This document shows positions 1,704 through 12,222 of a DNA stretch of 12,222 nt, one piece after another. Both the position numbers and the translations under genes were made by a program. The notes under the pieces are model-generated. The model was not told where the DNA came from and did not search any database. It saw nothing but the letters and a program-made list of their open reading frames with translations. Numbering within the stretch: the first letter of the stretch is position 1; each line of letters opens with the position of its first letter. This DNA comes from Deltaproteobacteria bacterium. GTDB taxonomy: Bacteria; Bdellovibrionota_F; JAHFAK01. The stretch lies in NCBI GenBank assembly GCA_023250585.1, contig JAHFAK010000071.1, forward strand, positions 1 through 12,222, written 5' to 3'.

Positions 1704-1772
1704 TTACCCCAAAGACTTCAATAAATCATAGGAATAAATTCCCGTACTGTTGCCGCCATTCCAATAGATAAC
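1704..1772 (-). pseudogene. Remnant 3' end of an Mrp/DUF971 gene
   Basis: Read on the minus strand, this translates to VIYWNGGNSTGIYSYDLLKS followed by LG and a TAA. It aligns with the last residues of the intact mrp-DUF971 gene (VIDWNDGHSTGIYSYDLLRS followed by L). By my hand alignment, 17 of 21 residues and about 50 of 63 bases agree. Several differences are synonymous (GTT/GTC, ATC/ATT, TCC/TCA, TCT/TCG), so the copy seems to have diverged while still coding. Immediately upstream in this frame are two stop codons and recognisable similarity ends, so only a gene tail is left. It could derive from a duplicated mrp or from a separate DUF971 gene. Confidence 0.72.
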
Positions 1773-1796: not shown

Positions 1797-1826
1797 TTGA
1801 ATACTCTGGCACAATAATTGCATACT
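1797..1826 (+). promoter_or_regulatory. Possible promoter of the transglutaminase-like gene
   Basis: TTGAAT (1797-1802) lies 18 bp before CATACT (1821-1826), each matching four of six consensus bases. This would give a start near 1833 and a leader of about 19 nt. No clear Shine-Dalgarno precedes the ATG at 1852. The T-run at 1791-1798 just upstream could also help end vapBC transcription, but I see no convincing GC stem. Weak call. Confidence 0.25.
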
Positions 1827-1851: not shown

Positions 1852-4800
1852 ATGAAACTACTGAAAATAAGCATTGTAATATTTATTCTTACCCAACAAT
1901 TCATAAGAGCAGAAGAGACAGTAATAGTTCCGGCCACAATGTCGTATCCTATTGAATATGAAAGGATTCATAGCTTATTCTCATTAGATTCTCCTACAAA
2001 GAAAGATTTAGAAATCCTGATGCTGCTCTATAGTAGAAGCCTTAGAGCCGAGCCTACGCTGCCTCTTATCCATGAAAAAGCTAAAGACTATGTTTCAACA
2101 AGGATAAATAATGAATACCAAGCATTGAAAAAAAGATTCGATGACAATCTCTCATCTTTTGATGTTTTAGGATTAAAGGCATTGTATCTAGATTTTGATA
2201 ATCTCGAATTTATAGAAAAAACATATAAACGTTTTTACAAAATTGTTTTCGATTCAGTCTATGACAAATTACTCCGGGTTTATCTTGATAAGGAAACAAA
2301 CGATGAAAAAATATACGAATGCTATGGAAGTATAATTCGTATTCTTGAATCAATGCTCAATCAACTGAAAAGTAGGCAGGAAAAAGAAGCACTTCTTGCA
2401 TTGCTTTCACAAGAAAGTTTTTTTCTTAAACTAAAAAAAATAATAAACGTTGGAAAAAAGGATTTTGATTTTGTAATCAGAAACATATTACTTGAGGTTT
2501 CTTTAGAATTTTTAGCATACATAAGGCTTGCCCAAGCAAAAATATTGCTAAAAAATACGGAATATTTCACTGAACAAACAAAAATGTCGCCTTTTGATGT
2601 ATCGCTTGCATATGTGTATGAGGCGAAGGAACATTATAATAAAAGTTATTCTCTCTTTGTCTATGAGGTGCCTCCATTTAAGAAATATCTCGGACCGATT
2701 CCCAATTACTCAATTGTTATTCCAAAATTTGATGAATTATATGAAGCAATAAAAAGAATAAAAACTACTACAAAGTTTAGAAATGAAAACTATCACACAT
2801 CATTACAAACAAATGATCCGAAGGCTCTTGTAAAAACAATACAGGCTGAAGCAAGAAGAATAGATGAACTGCAAGAAGAAAAATTACAGTCAGCTTTAAA
2901 AAATCGTAAAATTACTAAAACTGATACTATAAACGATAGCTTTTCTGCACAATTTGCGGATGAAAACCAAGAGGCTATTGCCCTTGATTTTTATATAGAA
3001 CCTGAAGTGAGTGAAACATACTTTGCCAAAAATGTCATCGATGAATTTAATCTAAAAACAGCAGATGGTGTGAGTTCAAAAAATCGAAAATTACAAAGCT
3101 TTGTGTATAAAAATACAAAATACGAACATACGTATTATGGAAGGATTTCACGTAAGAAAAAGATGATCGTTTTGCCAAAGGGCTTTGTTCCGGTAACAGA
3201 CTCTGTCGTTATTATTAATAAAGAGAAGGTTAGCTATAGTTTTTCACAAGACGAATATGGATTTATCTATTTTGAATTAACTCAAAAACCAACAAAAGAT
3301 ATTTACTTTTCATTGGGAATTGTTCTTGACGAGAATAAACATAATCCTCCGGTATCATTACCGAATACTCTCGAAAATAAATTAAAACAAAAATTATTTA
3401 CCGGAACGTATTCATCTCATACGGAAGAACATTTATTTGATACACTCAAAGAAAATAAAACACTTTCTTGGATTGTTGAATCAACTAATAATTATATTCA
3501 AGATTCATATGTTTACTTTGCAGGGCTTGATTACCAAAAACAAATTTTTCACGGAAAATACAAAAATAAAGTAGAAGCAATTGATCGCTCAATCGAAACG
3601 ATAAGCCTGCACTATAAAGGCAAAAATGTGCGGCCAAGTATTTGTAATATTACGGCACTCGTTGCTACCGCTTATTTACGTGAGCTCGGTATTCCAACTG
3701 TCATTGTTGTCGGATATTCTCATAAAGGAAATAATATGTTCATTCCTCATGCGTGGATTCGTTATTATAATGGAAAAAAATGGATAAGCTTAGATCCTAC
3801 TGCGAGAAACATTATGAAGAATTTTATTTTTAAAAATGTTCCCATTTCAAATACCTCTATGAGGTATCCAAAATGGGAGGCTTTTAGACTCAAAGAAAAA
3901 CTAGAAGAAAGAACACAAAAGCAAAAATTTTATGAACGTATTGATGTTTTAAAAAAGGAATTTGAGGAGATTGAACGTATCGACCCATTTGAAGGAATAA
4001 CAAATTATACTGATCCAATAAGTAAAAGTATTGCTCTTCGAAAATCTGACGAAAAACTAAAAAAACAAAATGAACAAGAAGATATTTTTTTACACTATAC
4101 CAATGAATTTATTAAGCACCTGAACGAAGCTCATACCTTTACCCAAACTGAAAAAGATAAAGATCTACTCGGCGCATATTGCGAATTTTACTTAGGCAAG
4201 ATTGAATATTTTTTAAAAAATCTAGGTAATCGCATTCCGAATGAAGATTCTCTACAATTGAATGAACTGATAAACAAATTCAGACAATGTTTCAATGGCA
4301 GTAATCGAGAAAATATATATAAATTCAATGCACCAAGTACAATATTTGGCTCTGATGATTCGAGTGGATATAAACGCAACTACGTAATTATTGAACAAAA
4401 CAATGAATTATTTTTAAAAAACAAGAAAACATTTCATGCAACAAAATTAGGTATAAAGAAATCGGACTATTCTGAGATATCAAAATTTGATGTTTTGGAA
4501 GATCCAATAACCCATTCTTTAATAAACTATGTTGTCTCTGGAGTAAAAAAAGATGGCACTCTTTTCTATCGTCATAAGAATAACGATGTCAGCATCAACA
4601 GAAATGTCCAAGACTTTACGATCGATCAAATAATTATTGATAAACATTCTGATGTATATCTTTCAATAAAAACTAATATTGAATACAAGCCATACTATTT
4701 ATTCAAAAACGGCAAAGAAATATTTTCAAATGCAACGAATACGATATGGCTCAATAAATCAAGCGCTGATGATAGTATCATTCTCATACCTTTTAAAAAT

Positions 4801-6759
4801 AAAAAGAAACAAAAACGAGTTAAAATATTAATTAATGGAGAATATCTCTCATACAAAAACCTCAATGACTTTATGATCGAGGATCATTTTACTCTATCAA
4901 ATAAAGCTCCCTTCATAATGATAGAATTAGATGATGGAAAAAGTATAGTATATTGCGATACTACCCTATTAAAAGATGAAAAAAATACGATTATTGAATT
5001 TCCATCTTCTCATAAATTAGAAAACGAATGGGAATACACCCATGGTATTATTTTTTGGTTTGGTAATAAAAGAATACAAAAGGACCATAAAACTCATCAT
5101 AAAATATTCTACCGAGTGTATAATCGTTCATTAGGATTAACAAAGATAATCAATAAAGATAATAATTACGATGTTTATTACAACAGTGTTGAATTTGATG
5201 TATCATACACTCATTATGGAATTCTGTTAATACCAGATTACGATGATCTACCTTATAAAATTATCTTTGACGATGAAGAATATACACTCAATGTGCAAAT
5301 GTTCAAAAAGAGTAAAGCAACAGTCCTCGCATTCACTATTAATGAAAATGATTTTTCATTAGTGCTGAAGACAGAAAATGGGTTTGTATTTGAGATTGAT
5401 AAATCATCATTACTCCATGGTGTTTATATAGCTGATGAAAAAGAGCGGCCAGGGAAATTTAGTAATTTTGCTGCTATAAAACATCAAAATAATAAATTCA
5501 GTTATTTTATTAACGGTAAAGAGCTTACGTTAATGGATGGAACAACATTTTATTCGGATATTAAATTCCAATCTCCAGTTCCACGATATGTTATAAAAGA
5601 AAATTATAATATCACCAAACGTTTTATCCCTTTCGGTTTGGAATATATAAGATATTATTCTGCTACTGAACCTACATATGACAGTTATCTATACATTTTA
5701 GACAGGCAAAATGGACAAATATTTTCAGGAAAAGAATATTCACACTATGAAAAGTTATTTATCTCAAAATCCCTTACTACCTTAATTTATATAGAAAAAG
5801 ATGATCATTTTGTTAATGTGCATGTTGAGGGCGATGCATTTAATGGGGAAAGAATTATTCAAATACCTCGATTCCCAAAAAAGATAAAAATCTGTGCCGG
5901 TCAAGTAAGGTCGCTTATTGTCAATAATGATGGAAAACACTACATGTTTATCGGGGTCTTTCCAGGTAAGAACTCTAGCAAAGAATTTATGTATAAAGTC
6001 TTTAAAGATGGTGAAGTAATTAAAGAATGGTCATACCCTAGAGAAGACTATCGAGAAGATTGTAGGTTTAATGATACGTTTACTATTAGTCTTGATAGCT
6101 GCGAAACTGATAATGCTTACTCAAATAATGCTTCAATTGAATGCTTCCAAATCAAGCATTTTGATGAAGTAATTTTCGATTCAACGATAGAGAAAGTCGA
6201 TAAATTCATAGTGACCGAAAATCAGGACGAAAAAATTACTACTCTAAAAACATCAATTGAAACGGAATCAAGAGAAGAAGCAAAAAGCGAACTCATTGAA
6301 TTATTACATAATCAAAAAAATAATTCACGAGATAGAATTGCTCTCATTTGGAGAAATTACACGCTGTCTCGTGAATTATTAGACCCTGAATTACAAACCA
6401 AGTGCAGTGATGAAATCATACAAGCACGATATAGAATTTTAGAGACATCGTTATCGGCCGAGGATAAAGCTCTTATGATCTTCTTTGTATTTGATGAACT
6501 GATCAAAAAATATATCGACACCGAAGAAGAATCAAAAAAAGCTGAAATTATACGATTTGTCCATTATATTATGAGTGCTCATACAACAATCAAAGAACTC
6601 GTAGCGCTAAAAGTTTATGAGAATATTGATTCCTATCGTGAGTACAAAGAAATACCTATTCAGAGTATAACAAAATCATTGGAAATAAAAAAAGAAATCG
6701 TAGAATTATTAGACAAAGAAAAAACCTATTATGACAAATACATACAGAAAAAAAATTAA
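1852..6759 (+). CDS. Giant exported transglutaminase-like protein
   Basis: This is a 1635-residue protein. Residues 1-20 form a signal peptide (basic MKLLK, hydrophobic core, then FIRA before EE) with no lipobox. About 25-400 is helical, with a coiled-coil-like stretch near 325-360. About 400-520 looks beta-rich. The transglutaminase-like core follows, with C598 in RPSICNITALVATAYLRELG, the GIPTVIVVGY strand, H633 in PHAW and D648 in WISLDPTAR, a complete Cys-His-Asp triad. About 820-1460 is beta-rich, with recurring phrases such as LFKNGKEIF, ILINGEYLSY, YFINGKELTL and VFKDGEVIKEW, suggesting a propeller-like or repeat fold. The last ~170 residues are helical. The enzyme could crosslink, act as a protease or be a peptide-binding relic; the substrate is unknown. 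The gene is very A-rich and stands alone between two DUF971 gene ends. The location, periplasm or exported, is inferred from the signal peptide. Confidence 0.8.
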   Translation: MKLLKISIVIFILTQQFIRAEETVIVPATMSYPIEYERIHSLFSLDSPTKKDLEILMLLYSRSLRAEPTLPLIHEKAKDYVSTRINNEYQALKKRFDDNLSSFDVLGLKALYLDFDNLEFIEKTYKRFYKIVFDSVYDKLLRVYLDKETNDEKIYECYGSIIRILESMLNQLKSRQEKEALLALLSQESFFLKLKKIINVGKKDFDFVIRNILLEVSLEFLAYIRLAQAKILLKNTEYFTEQTKMSPFDVSLAYVYEAKEHYNKSYSLFVYEVPPFKKYLGPIPNYSIVIPKFDELYEAIKRIKTTTKFRNENYHTSLQTNDPKALVKTIQAEARRIDELQEEKLQSALKNRKITKTDTINDSFSAQFADENQEAIALDFYIEPEVSETYFAKNVIDEFNLKTADGVSSKNRKLQSFVYKNTKYEHTYYGRISRKKKMIVLPKGFVPVTDSVVIINKEKVSYSFSQDEYGFIYFELTQKPTKDIYFSLGIVLDENKHNPPVSLPNTLENKLKQKLFTGTYSSHTEEHLFDTLKENKTLSWIVESTNNYIQDSYVYFAGLDYQKQIFHGKYKNKVEAIDRSIETISLHYKGKNVRPSICNITALVATAYLRELGIPTVIVVGYSHKGNNMFIPHAWIRYYNGKKWISLDPTARNIMKNFIFKNVPISNTSMRYPKWEAFRLKEKLEERTQKQKFYERIDVLKKEFEEIERIDPFEGITNYTDPISKSIALRKSDEKLKKQNEQEDIFLHYTNEFIKHLNEAHTFTQTEKDKDLLGAYCEFYLGKIEYFLKNLGNRIPNEDSLQLNELINKFRQCFNGSNRENIYKFNAPSTIFGSDDSSGYKRNYVIIEQNNELFLKNKKTFHATKLGIKKSDYSEISKFDVLEDPITHSLINYVVSGVKKDGTLFYRHKNNDVSINRNVQDFTIDQIIIDKHSDVYLSIKTNIEYKPYYLFKNGKEIFSNATNTIWLNKSSADDSIILIPFKNKKKQKRVKILINGEYLSYKNLNDFMIEDHFTLSNKAPFIMIELDDGKSIVYCDTTLLKDEKNTIIEFPSSHKLENEWEYTHGIIFWFGNKRIQKDHKTHHKIFYRVYNRSLGLTKIINKDNNYDVYYNSVEFDVSYTHYGILLIPDYDDLPYKIIFDDEEYTLNVQMFKKSKATVLAFTINENDFSLVLKTENGFVFEIDKSSLLHGVYIADEKERPGKFSNFAAIKHQNNKFSYFINGKELTLMDGTTFYSDIKFQSPVPRYVIKENYNITKRFIPFGLEYIRYYSATEPTYDSYLYILDRQNGQIFSGKEYSHYEKLFISKSLTTLIYIEKDDHFVNVHVEGDAFNGERIIQIPRFPKKIKICAGQVRSLIVNNDGKHYMFIGVFPGKNSSKEFMYKVFKDGEVIKEWSYPREDYREDCRFNDTFTISLDSCETDNAYSNNASIECFQIKHFDEVIFDSTIEKVDKFIVTENQDEKITTLKTSIETESREEAKSELIELLHNQKNNSRDRIALIWRNYTLSRELLDPELQTKCSDEIIQARYRILETSLSAEDKALMIFFVFDELIKKYIDTEEESKKAEIIRFVHYIMSAHTTIKELVALKVYENIDSYREYKEIPIQSITKSLEIKKEIVELLDKEKTYYDKYIQKKN

Positions 6760-8052
6760 TTATAGCGACCTCAATAAATCATATGAATAAATTCCCGTAC
6801 TATGCCCATCATTCCAATCAATGACAAAGGCATAATTACCAAGTGGTTTAATGCGATCAATTTTAATATCAGGGCGAATACCTTCTCGTTTAATTACTTT
6901 TTGTCCTGAATATTCATTAATACATTGAGCACAAGGGCAAGCATCACGGAGATCAAGATTAGTTATCACGTGCCGTCTTCCATCAGGCCATATAAATAAA
7001 ACCTCTTTTTCATTATGTCGCACTTCGGGACGTTGATTTGGCTCAAGACTTTTCTTGCCAAGCGATCGAATCATTGTATCAACCATATCTTCAATTGCTT
7101 TTTTCCTCTCATAATTTTGGAATCCCTCGGTAAATGTTTTATTAAGAGGTAAACGCGCCAATGTCTCGAGGCCAAATTTATCGAGAAGTGTTGTGTCTGA
7201 TTCAGGTCCAAAAATGAAATGCTTTTTATCGCAATTATCACAAGTAAAGTAACTCATGTTTTCCACTATACCGAGCATGGGAATATTAACGCTTTCAAAC
7301 ATCATGATGCCTTTAGCCACATCCACTAAAGATAGAGACTGCCGTGTCGTTACAATTACTGCACCGGAAAGTTTCAAAAGCTGAGTAATCGTCAATTGAA
7401 TATCGCCAGTTCCCGGCGGTAAATCGAGAATCAAATACTCAAGCTCACCCCAGGCAACTTGTTTAAAGAGTTGCTGAATATAGCCCGTTACCATTGGACC
7501 CCTCATAACCGCAGGCTTTTCACCAATCAAAAACCCAAACGACATGAGCTTCAATCCATTGATTTCTAATGGATGCAACAGATTCGCCTGTTGATCATAC
7601 GGAATGCGTGGGTTATACAGATTAAATAAGGTCGGTACTGATGGACCAAAAATATCAGTATCAAGAAGACCCGTTTTATGCCCACGTCGTGCAAGCTCAG
7701 CAGCAATATTGGCTGCAACCGTTGATTTGCCAACACCGCCTTTACAGGATGCAACAGCAATAATTGAACGGACGTTTTTTAATGCAGGAAATTCATTCCC
7801 TAAGTCTCGTTCTTGTGACTTCATTGTAACAAAAACCTTTTGTACTCCTTCAATGCCATACAGAGCGTCTTCTGCTTCTTTTCGAAACATCTCCTTCACG
7901 GGACATGCCGGCGTTGTAAGTTCGATATCAACTGAAACACTCGTGTCTTGAATCTTAATATTTTTTACAAAACCCAAAGACACAATGTCTTTGTTAAAAT
8001 CAGGATCTATAATTGCCTTTAAGGCTTCTTTAATTTTTTCTTCAGTAATCAT
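6760..8052 (-). CDS. mrp: Mrp/ApbC Fe-S carrier ATPase with DUF59 and DUF971
   Basis: Mrp/ApbC (NBP35-like) proteins are cytosolic P-loop ATPases that bind and hand on Fe-S clusters. The 430-residue product has an N-terminal DUF59/MIP18-like domain (1-78, conserved TTPACPV with C50). The central ATPase carries the deviant Walker A CKGGVGKS at 103-110, the GLLDTDIFGPSVPTLF segment, LDLPPGTGD near 210-217 and the cluster-binding CxxC at C271 and C274. A C-terminal DUF971 domain (about 341-430) contains DACPCAQC, with C372, C374 and C377. The ATG at 8052 follows AAGGGAG by 5 nt. The stop directly abuts the stop of the convergent transglutaminase-like gene, leaving no room for separate terminators. 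The fusion with DUF971 is known in other bacteria and suggests the DUF971 cysteines act with the carrier; that role is inferred. Confidence 0.95.
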   Translation of the reverse strand: MITEEKIKEALKAIIDPDFNKDIVSLGFVKNIKIQDTSVSVDIELTTPACPVKEMFRKEAEDALYGIEGVQKVFVTMKSQERDLGNEFPALKNVRSIIAVASCKGGVGKSTVAANIAAELARRGHKTGLLDTDIFGPSVPTLFNLYNPRIPYDQQANLLHPLEINGLKLMSFGFLIGEKPAVMRGPMVTGYIQQLFKQVAWGELEYLILDLPPGTGDIQLTITQLLKLSGAVIVTTRQSLSLVDVAKGIMMFESVNIPMLGIVENMSYFTCDNCDKKHFIFGPESDTTLLDKFGLETLARLPLNKTFTEGFQNYERKKAIEDMVDTMIRSLGKKSLEPNQRPEVRHNEKEVLFIWPDGRRHVITNLDLRDACPCAQCINEYSGQKVIKREGIRPDIKIDRIKPLGNYAFVIDWNDGHSTGIYSYDLLRSL

Positions 8053-8075: not shown

Positions 8076-8150
8076 ATGTTAAGATTGTGCTGATGTACTG
8101 ATGTTAGAATATTTCTCTTCAACATCAGTACATCAGCACAATCTTAACAT
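8076..8150. repeat. 30-bp perfect hairpin upstream of mrp
   Basis: Positions 8076-8105 and 8121-8150 are perfect reverse complements over 30 bp around a 15-nt loop. A 13-nt word, TGTACTGATGTTA, is also directly repeated at 8069-8081 and 8094-8106, overlapping the left arm. On the minus strand the hairpin ends about 12 nt before the mrp ribosome site, so it would lie in any leader read from upstream. No T-tract follows on either strand. Perfect pairing implies a recent origin or active maintenance. Confidence 0.8.
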
Positions 8151-8315: not shown

Positions 8316-11300
8316 CTATTGTTCTTCAGGAAGATCCCAATAATTGCCTGCATACGTACCAGCGAAAGCACCTCTATCGGTGAAACTACCAAATTCACTA
8401 TTCGCATTCATGTCATCGTTATAATAACTACTATCAGGACCAGAAATATTTGGATTCACCGTGGAATTACCATTTCCAGAGGCATACGCAGAACATGAGA
8501 TTTGGTCTTGGCCTAGAGCAAAATTGTAATAACAATTATTTGTAGAAGTATTATAGGTAGTGTTACTTGTAAAAGTTAAACCACTATACGGCAAAAACAT
8601 ATTTATGTTAATAATGTTATTATATGCTGTTATATTATTTGTAAACGAAATGATAGGCTCTGTAATCGTCGCTTCTAGTAAGATTGAAGGAACATCGATT
8701 GAAGGAACATCACTAGTATTACTTGATAATCTATCATTCCTAATGATCGTGTTATACTTACTATTGAAAACACCGCCCGGATTCTTACGATCTGACGTAG
8801 CTGCAATATACAGGGCTGAACCTTCTTTCACGCTGTAATTATAATAGAAGAGGTTATTCGAAAGTGTAGCATTATCCGATTCTTTCATATATACACCAGC
8901 ACCGGTACCACCTACATTTGATAATACTGTTGCACTATTATTTGCAATAACATTGTTTCGTAAAAGAATACTATCGCTTCTCACAATAGTGTTTCCTTGC
9001 ATATCCGTTTTTGGACAAAATTCTCGAGAATTTTTTTCAGTATACCCAGCATAGTCAGAACACGGTAAGTTATCTCCTGGAGTTGTATCCTCATGGGCGA
9101 AAACATATTTTGTATCATTACCGTTCACACACATATATTCCGTTTCACGCTGACCGGTAGGATATGCTTCGCTATTACATGAATAGACAGCAAAGCTCAA
9201 TCCACCTCCGTAATAACTCGTATTCTCAGCAATAATATTATTATCTAGAACAATATCTCTATCAAAATACGTTCCAAATTTTCTATTGTAACCATCTGTT
9301 TCAAGGTCAAGATATATACCACCACCAGAACTCAATTCTGGGCTGCTTGTAGAATATGTAGCCTTATTGCCTATAATGACGTTTTGACTAAAGACAGGTA
9401 CGGAGTTAATAAAATAGATTCCTCCTCCTTTTGTTCTTGCAATATTATTACGTATAATATTATTTTTTATAATAGAACCGTCTATTATACTATCTTCGGG
9501 ATTAGAGTCTCTTTTTGAACCACCAATATACATACCACCACCTAATCCAGCGGCATTATCAAAAGTATTATAGGCACTGTTATTCTCAATTGTATTATCA
9601 GTCATCACTATATTTAGCTTCATTCCTTGTTTGAAGATACCTCCTCCACTTTTTTTCGTTGTATTTCCTGAAATAGTATTCTTTTCCAGTGTGATAACGT
9701 AAGTGGATTGATCATAACCATCTTTTGTAGTTTCATTAACCCATTGAATACTTGTAAGTGCCTCTAAGTATATTCCTCCACCATTTGAATTATCACCAGA
9801 TGTAGTATTATCCTTAATTCTATTATTACGGATTACAGGGCTTGAATAATTCGCAGCAATTGCACCTCCACCGGAAACCCCGATATTATTTTCAAATGTA
9901 TTATTTTCAATAGCATATTGAGAAGGATTCTTAGCTTTATCGTAGCTGGTGAAAATATAGATTCCGCCTCCTTGTGTCCCCTTATTATATAGAAAAGTGT
10001 TATTGATAATTTTTGGTGGAGCTGTTGTCGTCGTGGTTGTGATATAAATCCCACCCCCACCAGTACCTCCTTTTGCGATGTTTGAGTGGAACGTGTTATG
10101 TTCTATACGTAATGCATTGGTCTTGTATAAATAAAGTCCTCCACCGTCCGTAAGTGATTGGCTTCCGATAAAAGAATTATTCGCAATAACCTGCTCATTA
10201 GTATCAGATAAGTCTGAAAGATATATTGCTCCTCCCTCAGCATGGGATTCATTAACCTTATCAAATTCGTTACCATCCTCAGATGAAAAACCTCCAATAA
10301 TCATATGTGATACTTTAAATAATGCAATAGCTCCTCCGGCAGAATCTTCGTTCTTATTACCATTAAAACTATTTGCCGAGAAACGTATATTATCTGATTG
10401 AACCCCAAGAATACCAGCACCAAACAGAGTTAAATTAGCTCCTTGTGTATCTGATAGTTTAGCCTTATTACTTCGTATCTCACTACCGGTAATGGTAATA
10501 TTAGAGGAACTATCAAAGAATAAAGCACCTCCACCATGATACGTACTCACAGTACTGTTAATTTCGCCTAATGCTTCATTATTAGAGAGAAGAGACATAT
10601 CACTAACTGCGAGGATTCCATCTTTATTCTTTAAATAAATTCCGCCGCCACTGTCTTTTGCTTTATTTGAATCGATGGTTGTTCTTTGTATTGTAAGATT
10701 TGACACATTCTCAAGGGCAATCCCACCGCCATTTATTGCTATGTTGTTTCTAAGGATTGCATCATCAATTAAAACGTTGGAGTTATTAATATATAGAGCC
10801 CCACCATTGGTAACACTATTTCCATTTTGGAATATAAGACCAATAATACTACTCTCTTCGTTGACGCCACTAGCATAAAATGAAAGTATGTTATTCTTAT
10901 TGTCTCCATCAATAATAGTCTCTGCAGGCACAACTTTACCATTTTCAACTTTATAACATTTTCTTGCAATCAAGGTTATATCTTTACTCTTAATAGTAAT
11001 ACCTGATTCTTTGTAAGTGCCCACAGCAATGGAGATCGTAGAACTCTTACTCTCCAGAGAAGAAATTGTTAGGTTAAGACTTTTCCCCGGATTATCTTCT
11101 GGATAGAGCACAGTTGGATAAATATCTTCATCATCATCCTTCAGATCATCGCATGTATCTGAATATCCCGGAGGTATATGAGTACAAGCTACATAATATA
11201 TTTCTTTATTTCCAAAACCATCCTCATCGTTATCTTTATGATAAACCACCTCTTTGCCGGGGCAATCCGCATTATCATCAACTAAACCATTACAGTTATC

Positions 11301-12222
11301 ATCAATGCCATTATCTTGTTCTTTGGCACCTGGATTAATTGATGGTACGTCATCATTACAATCTACATTTGAAAGATATCCATCGCTATCTAAATCTTTA
11401 CATATACTTGTGGTTCCGTCGCAGTTATAATCTACTGGCGTACTTTGACCAGCAATGTAACATGATTCAGGAGCACCTGGATACCGAGTCTTATCATTAT
11501 CATCGCAATCTGCTTGGTTAAGTGAATAACCATCGCCATCCATATCTAAATCGCTGCATGCTAAATCGCTACCATCACAATTCTGATCTATTCCGTCACC
11601 GCAAATTTCTTGAGCACCAGGATAGATCTTCACATTATTGTCATTACAATCCACATTGGCTGTTGACCCATCACCATCTCTATCAAGATCTTTGCAATTG
11701 ATTATACTTCCATTGCAGTTATAATCTTTTGGACTATCGCATTCTTCCGCAGCGCCAGGATATGTTTTCGCATCTGCATCATCGCAATCAGCTTGATTCT
11801 CAGTAAATCCATCCTTATCGTCATCGACGTCTTTACAATCGAGATCTTTGCCATTACAGTCTTGATCTATGCCATCACTGCAAACTTCTTGAGCGCCCGG
11901 AAATAATGTTTTATCAGCGTCATTACAATCGCTCTGATTTTCTGTATATCCATCGCCATCGTTATCTACATCATTACAACTTATATCTTTTTCATTACAA
12001 TCCTGATCGATACCGTCATCGCATACTTCGGGAGCGCCGGGATAAATACTTTTATCAGCGTCATTACAATCTCCTTGGGTTTCATTAAAACCATCACCAT
12101 CATTATCTGCTTTAAGTTCTGCAAGCGTTGTAGATCGAAATGCGCTATCTCCAAAACATCCTGCTACACTAAATAATATTAGTACTAGCCCATGTATGGA
12201 GTAAAAACGTATGTTGTTTTTT
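8316..12222 (-). CDS. Large MopE-repeat/beta-helix surface lipoprotein, 5' truncated
   Basis: The frame is open from the window edge to a stop at 8316, giving at least 1301 residues. No in-frame ATG is visible at the start, so initiation is just outside the window. Visible residues 4-22 form a hydrophobic signal ending in the lipobox VAGC (C22). After a short linker come six MopE-type units (39-319: about 39-82, 83-129, 130-176, 177-222, 223-274 and 275-319). Their pattern is DxDGDGYT..QxDCxDxD...PGAxExCxDGIDQDCNG. A degenerate seventh runs to about 370. Then a right-handed parallel beta-helix begins (VGTYKESGITIKSKDITLI) with about 19 GG[GA][IL]-type coils to near residue 1140, ending in DRGAFAGTYAG. 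There is no C-terminal autotransporter barrel. It is likely an outer-membrane or surface-anchored protein binding Ca2+ or Cu; adhesion is inferred. The DNA-level start at GTG 11654 is internal. Confidence 0.88.
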   Translation of the reverse strand, partial: KNNIRFYSIHGLVLILFSVAGCFGDSAFRSTTLAELKADNDGDGFNETQGDCNDADKSIYPGAPEVCDDGIDQDCNEKDISCNDVDNDGDGYTENQSDCNDADKTLFPGAQEVCSDGIDQDCNGKDLDCKDVDDDKDGFTENQADCDDADAKTYPGAAEECDSPKDYNCNGSIINCKDLDRDGDGSTANVDCNDNNVKIYPGAQEICGDGIDQNCDGSDLACSDLDMDGDGYSLNQADCDDNDKTRYPGAPESCYIAGQSTPVDYNCDGTTSICKDLDSDGYLSNVDCNDDVPSINPGAKEQDNGIDDNCNGLVDDNADCPGKEVVYHKDNDEDGFGNKEIYYVACTHIPPGYSDTCDDLKDDDEDIYPTVLYPEDNPGKSLNLTISSLESKSSTISIAVGTYKESGITIKSKDITLIARKCYKVENGKVVPAETIIDGDNKNNILSFYASGVNEESSIIGLIFQNGNSVTNGGALYINNSNVLIDDAILRNNIAINGGGIALENVSNLTIQRTTIDSNKAKDSGGGIYLKNKDGILAVSDMSLLSNNEALGEINSTVSTYHGGGALFFDSSSNITITGSEIRSNKAKLSDTQGANLTLFGAGILGVQSDNIRFSANSFNGNKNEDSAGGAIALFKVSHMIIGGFSSEDGNEFDKVNESHAEGGAIYLSDLSDTNEQVIANNSFIGSQSLTDGGGLYLYKTNALRIEHNTFHSNIAKGGTGGGGIYITTTTTTAPPKIINNTFLYNKGTQGGGIYIFTSYDKAKNPSQYAIENNTFENNIGVSGGGAIAANYSSPVIRNNRIKDNTTSGDNSNGGGIYLEALTSIQWVNETTKDGYDQSTYVITLEKNTISGNTTKKSGGGIFKQGMKLNIVMTDNTIENNSAYNTFDNAAGLGGGMYIGGSKRDSNPEDSIIDGSIIKNNIIRNNIARTKGGGIYFINSVPVFSQNVIIGNKATYSTSSPELSSGGGIYLDLETDGYNRKFGTYFDRDIVLDNNIIAENTSYYGGGLSFAVYSCNSEAYPTGQRETEYMCVNGNDTKYVFAHEDTTPGDNLPCSDYAGYTEKNSREFCPKTDMQGNTIVRSDSILLRNNVIANNSATVLSNVGGTGAGVYMKESDNATLSNNLFYYNYSVKEGSALYIAATSDRKNPGGVFNSKYNTIIRNDRLSSNTSDVPSIDVPSILLEATITEPIISFTNNITAYNNIININMFLPYSGLTFTSNTTYNTSTNNCYYNFALGQDQISCSAYASGNGNSTVNPNISGPDSSYYNDDMNANSEFGSFTDRGAFAGTYAGNYWDLPEEQ
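8802..10816 (-). repeat. Pmp-like GGGI beta-helix coil repeats
   Basis: Within the lipoprotein, about 19 motifs of the GG[GA][IL]Y type recur, for example NGGALYI, NGGGIALEN, SGGGIYLK, EGGAIYLS, DGGGLYLY, QGGGIYIF, LGGGMYIG, KGGGIYFI and YGGGLSFA. Each is followed by an N-rich turn such as ENNTFENN, the ladder typical of polymorphic outer membrane protein passengers and PbH1 helices. Coil spacing varies from about 20 to 60 residues. One coil carries a Thr run (ITTTTTT) at about 10025-10050. Confidence 0.75.
11112..12107 (-). repeat. Tandem MopE-type metal-binding units
   Basis: The DNA shows about 141-bp periodicity, with cattacaatc and gcgccgggata-like words recurring on the plus strand. 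It encodes six units with DCxD, PGAxE and DQDCNG signatures, plus a degenerate seventh that keeps DNDEDGFGN and CDDLKDDDEDIYP. Units 3 and 5 replace the GIDQDCNG word by DYNC(N/D)G variants, and unit 6 lacks the PGAxExC cysteine. The Asp-rich loops suggest calcium binding and the paired cysteines suggest disulfides; both are inferred. Confidence 0.8.

Follow-up and report, generated by a model that had tools for sequence, protein, structure and literature searches.

A 1635-residue exported transglutaminase-like protein with a common catalytic core, orphan flanking regions and an upstream sigma-54 promoter motif

LapG, DvhG and HvyA (BTLCP, Peptidase_C93) are exported enzymes of the transglutaminase fold with a Cys-His-Asp triad; LapG and DvhG are characterised proteases, and exported HvyA needs all three residues of its triad (PMC4241560). 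The core fold is also present in S. pyogenes TglA (9crn), in a C. hutchinsonii putative cysteine protease (3isr) and in the core of P. aeruginosa TgpA (6g49), and animal-type transglutaminases have two beta-barrels directly after it. Here we describe a protein that has the same core and an exported Cys-His-Asp arrangement like that of the LapG group, set within 1635 residues and encoded in a 12,222-nucleotide stretch of DNA (the window) from a bacterium of an uncultured lineage.

The initial annotation had proposed an exported protein with a helical N-terminal third, a C598-H633-D648 triad at its middle and a long beta-rich region after it, and all of these elements are recovered. The reading frame occupies exactly 1852-6759 of the + strand with no interruption, the N-terminus (MKLLKISIVIFILTQQFIRA followed by EE) is signal-peptide-like both by eye and by a crude rule, the N-terminal third is helix-rich by composition, the three triad residues are at these positions and inside a PF01841 match, and the ~630 residues from 830 to 1460 are beta-rich by composition. 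The layout of the gene and its product is as follows.

1852..6759, + strand: open reading frame for the exported transglutaminase-like protein of 1635 aa, a single frame of 1635 codons
1852..1911, + strand: probable signal peptide, residues 1-20 (boundary IRA-EE), from inspection by eye and a crude rule
1912..3051, + strand: helix-rich N-terminal region, residues 21-400, by composition, with no Pfam match and no credible homologue in 386 genomes
3124..3327, + strand: predicted beta-sandwich-like domain preceding the core, residues 425-492, from the AlphaFold2 (AF2) model (strand pLDDT about 70-82)
3409..3912, + strand: predicted transglutaminase-like catalytic core, residues about 520-687, from PF01841, the AF2 model and Foldseek and VIA matches
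3643..3645, + strand: predicted catalytic Cys598, invariant in the 15-sequence alignment
3748..3750, + strand: predicted catalytic His633, invariant in the same alignment
3793..3795, + strand: predicted catalytic Asp648, likewise invariant
3871..4326, + strand: predicted helical spacer, residues 674-825 (AF2 pLDDT about 65-74 from ~731, mostly <50 before)
4339..6231, + strand: beta-rich region with NG-type hairpin phrases, residues 830-1460, by composition and a motif test (AF2 pLDDT 33)
6259..6756, + strand: helix-rich C-terminal region, residues 1470-1635, by composition, with no Pfam match

Searches of NCBIfam, PHROGs and PADLOC gave no family for the protein, and a Rho_RNA_bind match at residues 385-415 scores below its cut-off and is ascribed to chance. 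No terminator-like stem or Rfam match bearing on the gene was found.

The designation as transglutaminase-like holds at the level of the profile and of the predicted fold. A Pfam scan matched Transglut_core (PF01841) to residues 596-649 (E 1.3e-6, 29.0 bits), and the core region scanned alone reached 33.9 bits, against a curated cut-off of 23 bits. A profile search of GTDB species genomes provided 14 core homologues that were aligned with the 1635-aa protein (15 sequences in all), and the invariant columns are C598, G621, H633, W635, W644, D648 and T650; the one nearly invariant column, the Gly two residues before the Cys, is S596 in the 1635-aa protein. Most of these homologues, at 330-590 residues, are exported or sit in the membrane, and they lack the giant flanks, the nearest being about 470-540 aa and mostly exported or lipoprotein-like. 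An AF2 model of residues 365-830, built on this alignment, has low overall confidence (mean pLDDT 60, pTM 0.39), with values mostly of 76-91 around the triad, and predicts a beta-sandwich before the core and helices after it. In the model a helix begins with C598, H633 is part of a strand and D648 comes just past the next strand. The triad thus sits in a canonical core of the model, whereas members that lay apart would have counted against the initial annotation.

Comparisons with solved structures point the same way. Foldseek placed 3isr as the top match of the core model, and VIA placed 9crn first (Z 13.0, rmsd 3.3, 135 aligned, model 156-323), with LapG at Z about 9 and animal enzymes, factor XIII and TG2 included, at Z about 8. 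The 15-sequence profile matched 3isr (E 1e-21), 6g49 (2e-11) and 9crn (7e-8), and also 4xz7, and alignment with the TgpA core 6g49 brings the Cys, HAW and DPT motifs into coincidence, the E-value taken alone being weak (0.81). The profile match, the triad at the family positions and the predicted papain-like fold, with Cys at the start of a helix and His and Asp on or after adjacent strands, together with the matches to solved folds, place the predicted core in the well-described Transglut_core superfamily. The initial annotation had allowed that the region might match a well-described family with a known role, and the first part of this is the case at the superfamily level; the second is not, as the family does not fix a role. 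PF01841 is common, with 228 of the 290 genomes surveyed carrying it, which makes the fold of the enzyme unsurprising.

The differences from described enzymes lie largely outside the core. The exported PF01841 proteins of ~470-540 aa from Candidatus Calescibacterium, Zixibacteria and WOR-3 (L025, L029, L031) have the same core and invariant residues, are at best about 40-43% identical to the 1635-aa protein over 50-60 residues, and often have a signal peptide or lipobox plus a region ahead of the core; however, they are one third the length, their core is C-terminal, and they have neither the helical N-terminus nor the 630-residue beta-rich region. TglA, the C. hutchinsonii protein and TgpA have other surrounding domains and lengths, and identity over the aligned core is low (14% to 9crn and 21% to 3isr). 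The triad spacing of 35/15 residues is close to the 34/15 of HvyA, and by analogy the 1635-aa protein may work like the LapG-type proteases. By profile and calcium-binding residues it is nonetheless predicted to stand outside the LapG/BTLCP family: the Pfam scan of the core region lists no PF06035 (Peptidase_C93) match, and the acidic calcium-binding residues that flank the Cys in DvhG (D316-C317-E318) correspond to I597-C598-N599 here. The LapG-type proteases are also several times shorter. In place of the two beta-barrels of the animal-type enzymes, the AF2 model has helices at ~674-825, predicted with modest confidence.

The initial annotation had not recognised this combination of domains as a described family, and searches with the core and with the flanks, in up to 386 genomes, found the architecture nowhere else. 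No credible relative of residues 23-516 was found in 386 genomes from across the domain, the two weak N-terminal matches being judged chance (a 98-codon frame, and a protein with a CAP-like domain by eye), and no credible relative of the beta-rich region was found in the same 386, where the sole weak match (L046) is an apparent aspartate kinase and likewise ascribed to chance. The full-length protein has no relative beyond its core in 98 genomes, and a full-length search of genome contigs, viral contigs and plasmids returned no relatives. The phylum is represented by two surveyed genomes only; the sister genome has no relative of the 1635-aa protein, and its one transglutaminase-like gene is a different one, of about 690 aa. 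As judged from these sequence searches, the protein combines a very common core with a new architecture, in which the catalytic part is already explained and the remainder is orphan.

The beta-rich region had been described as carrying recurring xxF(K/I)NGKE phrases and perhaps repeat units. A hairpin phrase does recur, as the looser pattern h-x-[ND]-G-[KE] is found at five places where shuffles predict 0.27; the exact phrase F(K/I)NGKE is present just twice (at 951 and 1219). Longer internal repeats did not gain statistical support, the best internal self-alignment scoring 66 when one of 20 shuffles reached 76. The AF2 model of this region has a mean pLDDT of 33, and no fold search was run from it. 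A beta-propeller at 830-1460 is a guess prompted by the hairpin phrases, and it stays a guess because the region could not be folded: the phrases are enriched, the repeats are not significant and the pLDDT is 33. A PDB match of the region to WhiA (E 0.04) was judged chance.

Other giants with a transglutaminase-like core are few. Among the matches listed from the core search of 386 genomes, three frames exceed 1,000 codons: the 1635-aa ORF, one of 1436 codons in G264 and one of 1018 codons in G176, the last of which we rejected as a giant, since it is a high-GC open frame that apparently holds an ordinary ~480-aa protein. The G264 protein (G264:C494, L117 243-4472; 1409 aa) is likewise exported-looking and multidomain with a transglutaminase-like motif region in mid-protein, but its accessory regions are different (by eye lectin-like, von Willebrand A-like and Pro/Thr-rich linkers) and its similarity to the 1635-aa protein is confined to 27 residues (E 0.0017). 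The same genome as the window encodes one other PF01841 protein, of at least 2224 aa (C25 28201-34872, L010), which is cut by a contig end just inside an apparent signal peptide. It too is exported-looking, with a helical N-terminus, a mid-protein core and a long C-terminus; its flanks are helical-looking, its similarity to the 1635-aa protein is limited to the active-site motifs (E 0.17), and it has no relatives in 386 genomes.

Upstream of the 1635-codon frame is a perfect match to the promoter motif of the -24/-12 class.

1807..1822, + strand: sigma-54 (-24/-12) promoter motif TGGCAC-N5-TTGCA (TGGCACAATAATTGCA), perfect match

The motif ends 29 bases before the start codon and is the sole one in the window at up to one mismatch. 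We took as putatively sigma-54-dependent a gene with TGGCAC-N5-TTGCW within 100 nt of its start in a genome that encodes RpoN, and both are found here. Besides rpoN, the genome matches the sigma-54 activator domain 14 times, in 11 cases strongly. Fourteen perfect sites occur in the genome against none for the reversed pattern. Two are at contig ends and were left out; at ten of the 12 that could be assessed, the protein encoded just downstream has a signal peptide or lipobox. A papain-family (C1) lipoprotein and a lipoprotein with a lamin-tail domain are also among the targets. By the same crude rule about 31% of 195 ORFs, taken from 383 kb of contigs, count as exported, and relative to this background the binomial P is about 3e-4, which is approximate because the window's own site is among the ten and the export rule is permissive. 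Control of the cell exterior by sigma-54 has been proposed in the literature (PMC3162934), and the distribution of sites fits that proposal; the perfect sites suggest that this uncultured lineage has exported proteins grouped in a sigma-54 regulon. The transglutaminase-like gene would then be switched on by sigma-54 and an enhancer-binding activator, alongside other exported proteins and lipoproteins.

The gene is placed between a PIN gene and mrp, and part of mrp is present on both sides of it.

6760..8052, - strand: mrp/ApbC-type Fe-S carrier with a C-terminal DUF971/GBBH-like_N domain, by profile matches; the intact copy of a repeat forms its 3' end
1704..1772, - strand: degraded duplicate of the mrp 3' end, 69 nt, reading YWNGGNSTGIYSYDLLKSLG and then its own in-frame stop, by repeat match

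A 59-nt direct repeat (1714-1772 and 6767-6825; 83% identical, 5053-nt spacing) brackets the gene, and the left copy can be extended to 1704-1772 with a local score of 69 against a shuffle maximum of 35. This copy, on the far side of the transglutaminase-like gene, still reads as the mrp C-terminus with a stop of its own. Either the gene was therefore inserted beside mrp, or mrp itself underwent partial duplication or replacement. Presumably the gene entered the PIN-mrp site, or was rearranged into it, and left the mrp duplicate behind. That it was cargo of an integrative element with the mrp 3' end as attachment site is a doubtful but arguable origin: an intact and a degraded mrp 3' end flank the gene and the sister genome has no relative, yet the 1635-aa ORF is alone between the repeats, with no integrase or recombinase in the 5-kb segment, and partial duplication or gene replacement of mrp could equally leave such a scar. 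The codon usage of the gene does not stand out from that of the genome (z +0.8), which does not support horizontal transfer, and GC is only modestly low (0.305 vs 0.357 +/- 0.031).

Several other features occur in the window. The PIN protein (1268-1702) is VapC-type, scoring 73.4 bits to TIGR00028 against a cut-off of 73.6, and is overlapped by a small ribbon-helix-helix-looking ORF (1035-1268), the two forming a toxin-antitoxin-like pair. A 39-bp inverted repeat at 860-955 (TCATCCCGTGGCTTGACCGCGGGGATCC type) has a core that is also present in L072, L076 and L100, and so is a dispersed palindromic element. Between mrp and a large gene on the - strand (8316-12221) lies an inverted repeat (8076-8150), perfect over 30 bp and with a loop of 15 nt. 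The product of the large gene, cut by the contig end, has six MopE metal-binding motifs along with right-handed beta-helix repeats.

As to function, we put roughly even weight for and against an exported thiol enzyme acting on amide bonds of envelope or extracellular proteins, a hydrolase in preference to a cross-linker, and switched by sigma-54. The signal peptide implies export by Sec, and the family and predicted fold suggest one active papain-like/transglutaminase-fold thiol catalyst, in which C598 would attack a carboxamide, either a peptide bond or a Gln side chain, with H633 and D648 activating it and an acyl-enzyme being formed. With water as the likeliest acceptor, the enzyme would in effect deamidate an envelope or extracellular protein or cut it by limited proteolysis, and not cross-link it. 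Its long flanks, helical and beta-rich, would most likely be scaffold and substrate-recognition modules; none of the neighbouring genes suggests a substrate. The initial annotation had listed cell-surface crosslinking, peptide processing and inter-bacterial or host interaction as possible roles. A protease or amidase is favoured purely on family grounds, by analogy with the exported proteases LapG and DvhG and with the dependence of HvyA on its triad. A true cross-linking transglutaminase, forming isopeptide bonds between envelope or extracellular matrix proteins, is unlikely: it would have the superfamily and triad in common with factor XIII and TG2, and possible substrates in the long exported proteins with MopE, TSP3 and RCC1 repeats that the genome encodes, but a helical segment replaces the barrels that follow the core in the animal enzymes, and the best sequence relatives are not known cross-linkers.

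The sequence before the nucleophile bears on whether the core is active at all, as S596-I597 precede C598 where most relatives have Gly-Asp or Gly-Val, and this could alter or weaken catalysis. Together with the >1,300 non-catalytic residues that make up most of the protein, the loss of the nearly invariant Gly could fit a weak or inactive module that binds surface peptides or proteins, the giant being mainly structural or adhesive; we consider this unlikely too, since the triad and G621, W635, W644 and T650 are all kept, which is unexpected in a dead enzyme. Polymorphic toxins carry the toxic domain at the C-terminus, and the mid-protein position of the core here argues against a secreted effector or toxin in which the core would be the toxic domain, directed against other bacteria or a eukaryotic host. 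Nor did the neighbourhood yield an immunity gene, a delivery domain or a secretion-system marker, and no PADLOC or PHROG family reaches significance. Papain-like and transglutaminase-like domains do serve as toxins in many systems (PMC10318531) and the gene adjoins an insertion scar, and even so we regard a toxin as very improbable. The reading that we prefer is an exported, sigma-54-switched thiol hydrolase.

A bolder extension, which we think quite improbable, would make the protein the founding member of a class of giant surface enzymes, specific to its lineage and switched by sigma-54. Their transglutaminase-like core would be set between large orphan modules for recognition and would remodel repeat-rich extracellular proteins of the organism itself; the two unrelated giants in this genome would then be two such machines. 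The interest of the protein is in its scaffold, which exceeds 1,300 residues, has no detectable relative, comes from a phylum with two surveyed genomes and would be under a sigma-54 programme apparently directed at exported proteins. If active, the protein would offer a concrete way into how bacteria of an uncultured lineage reshape the outside of their cells.
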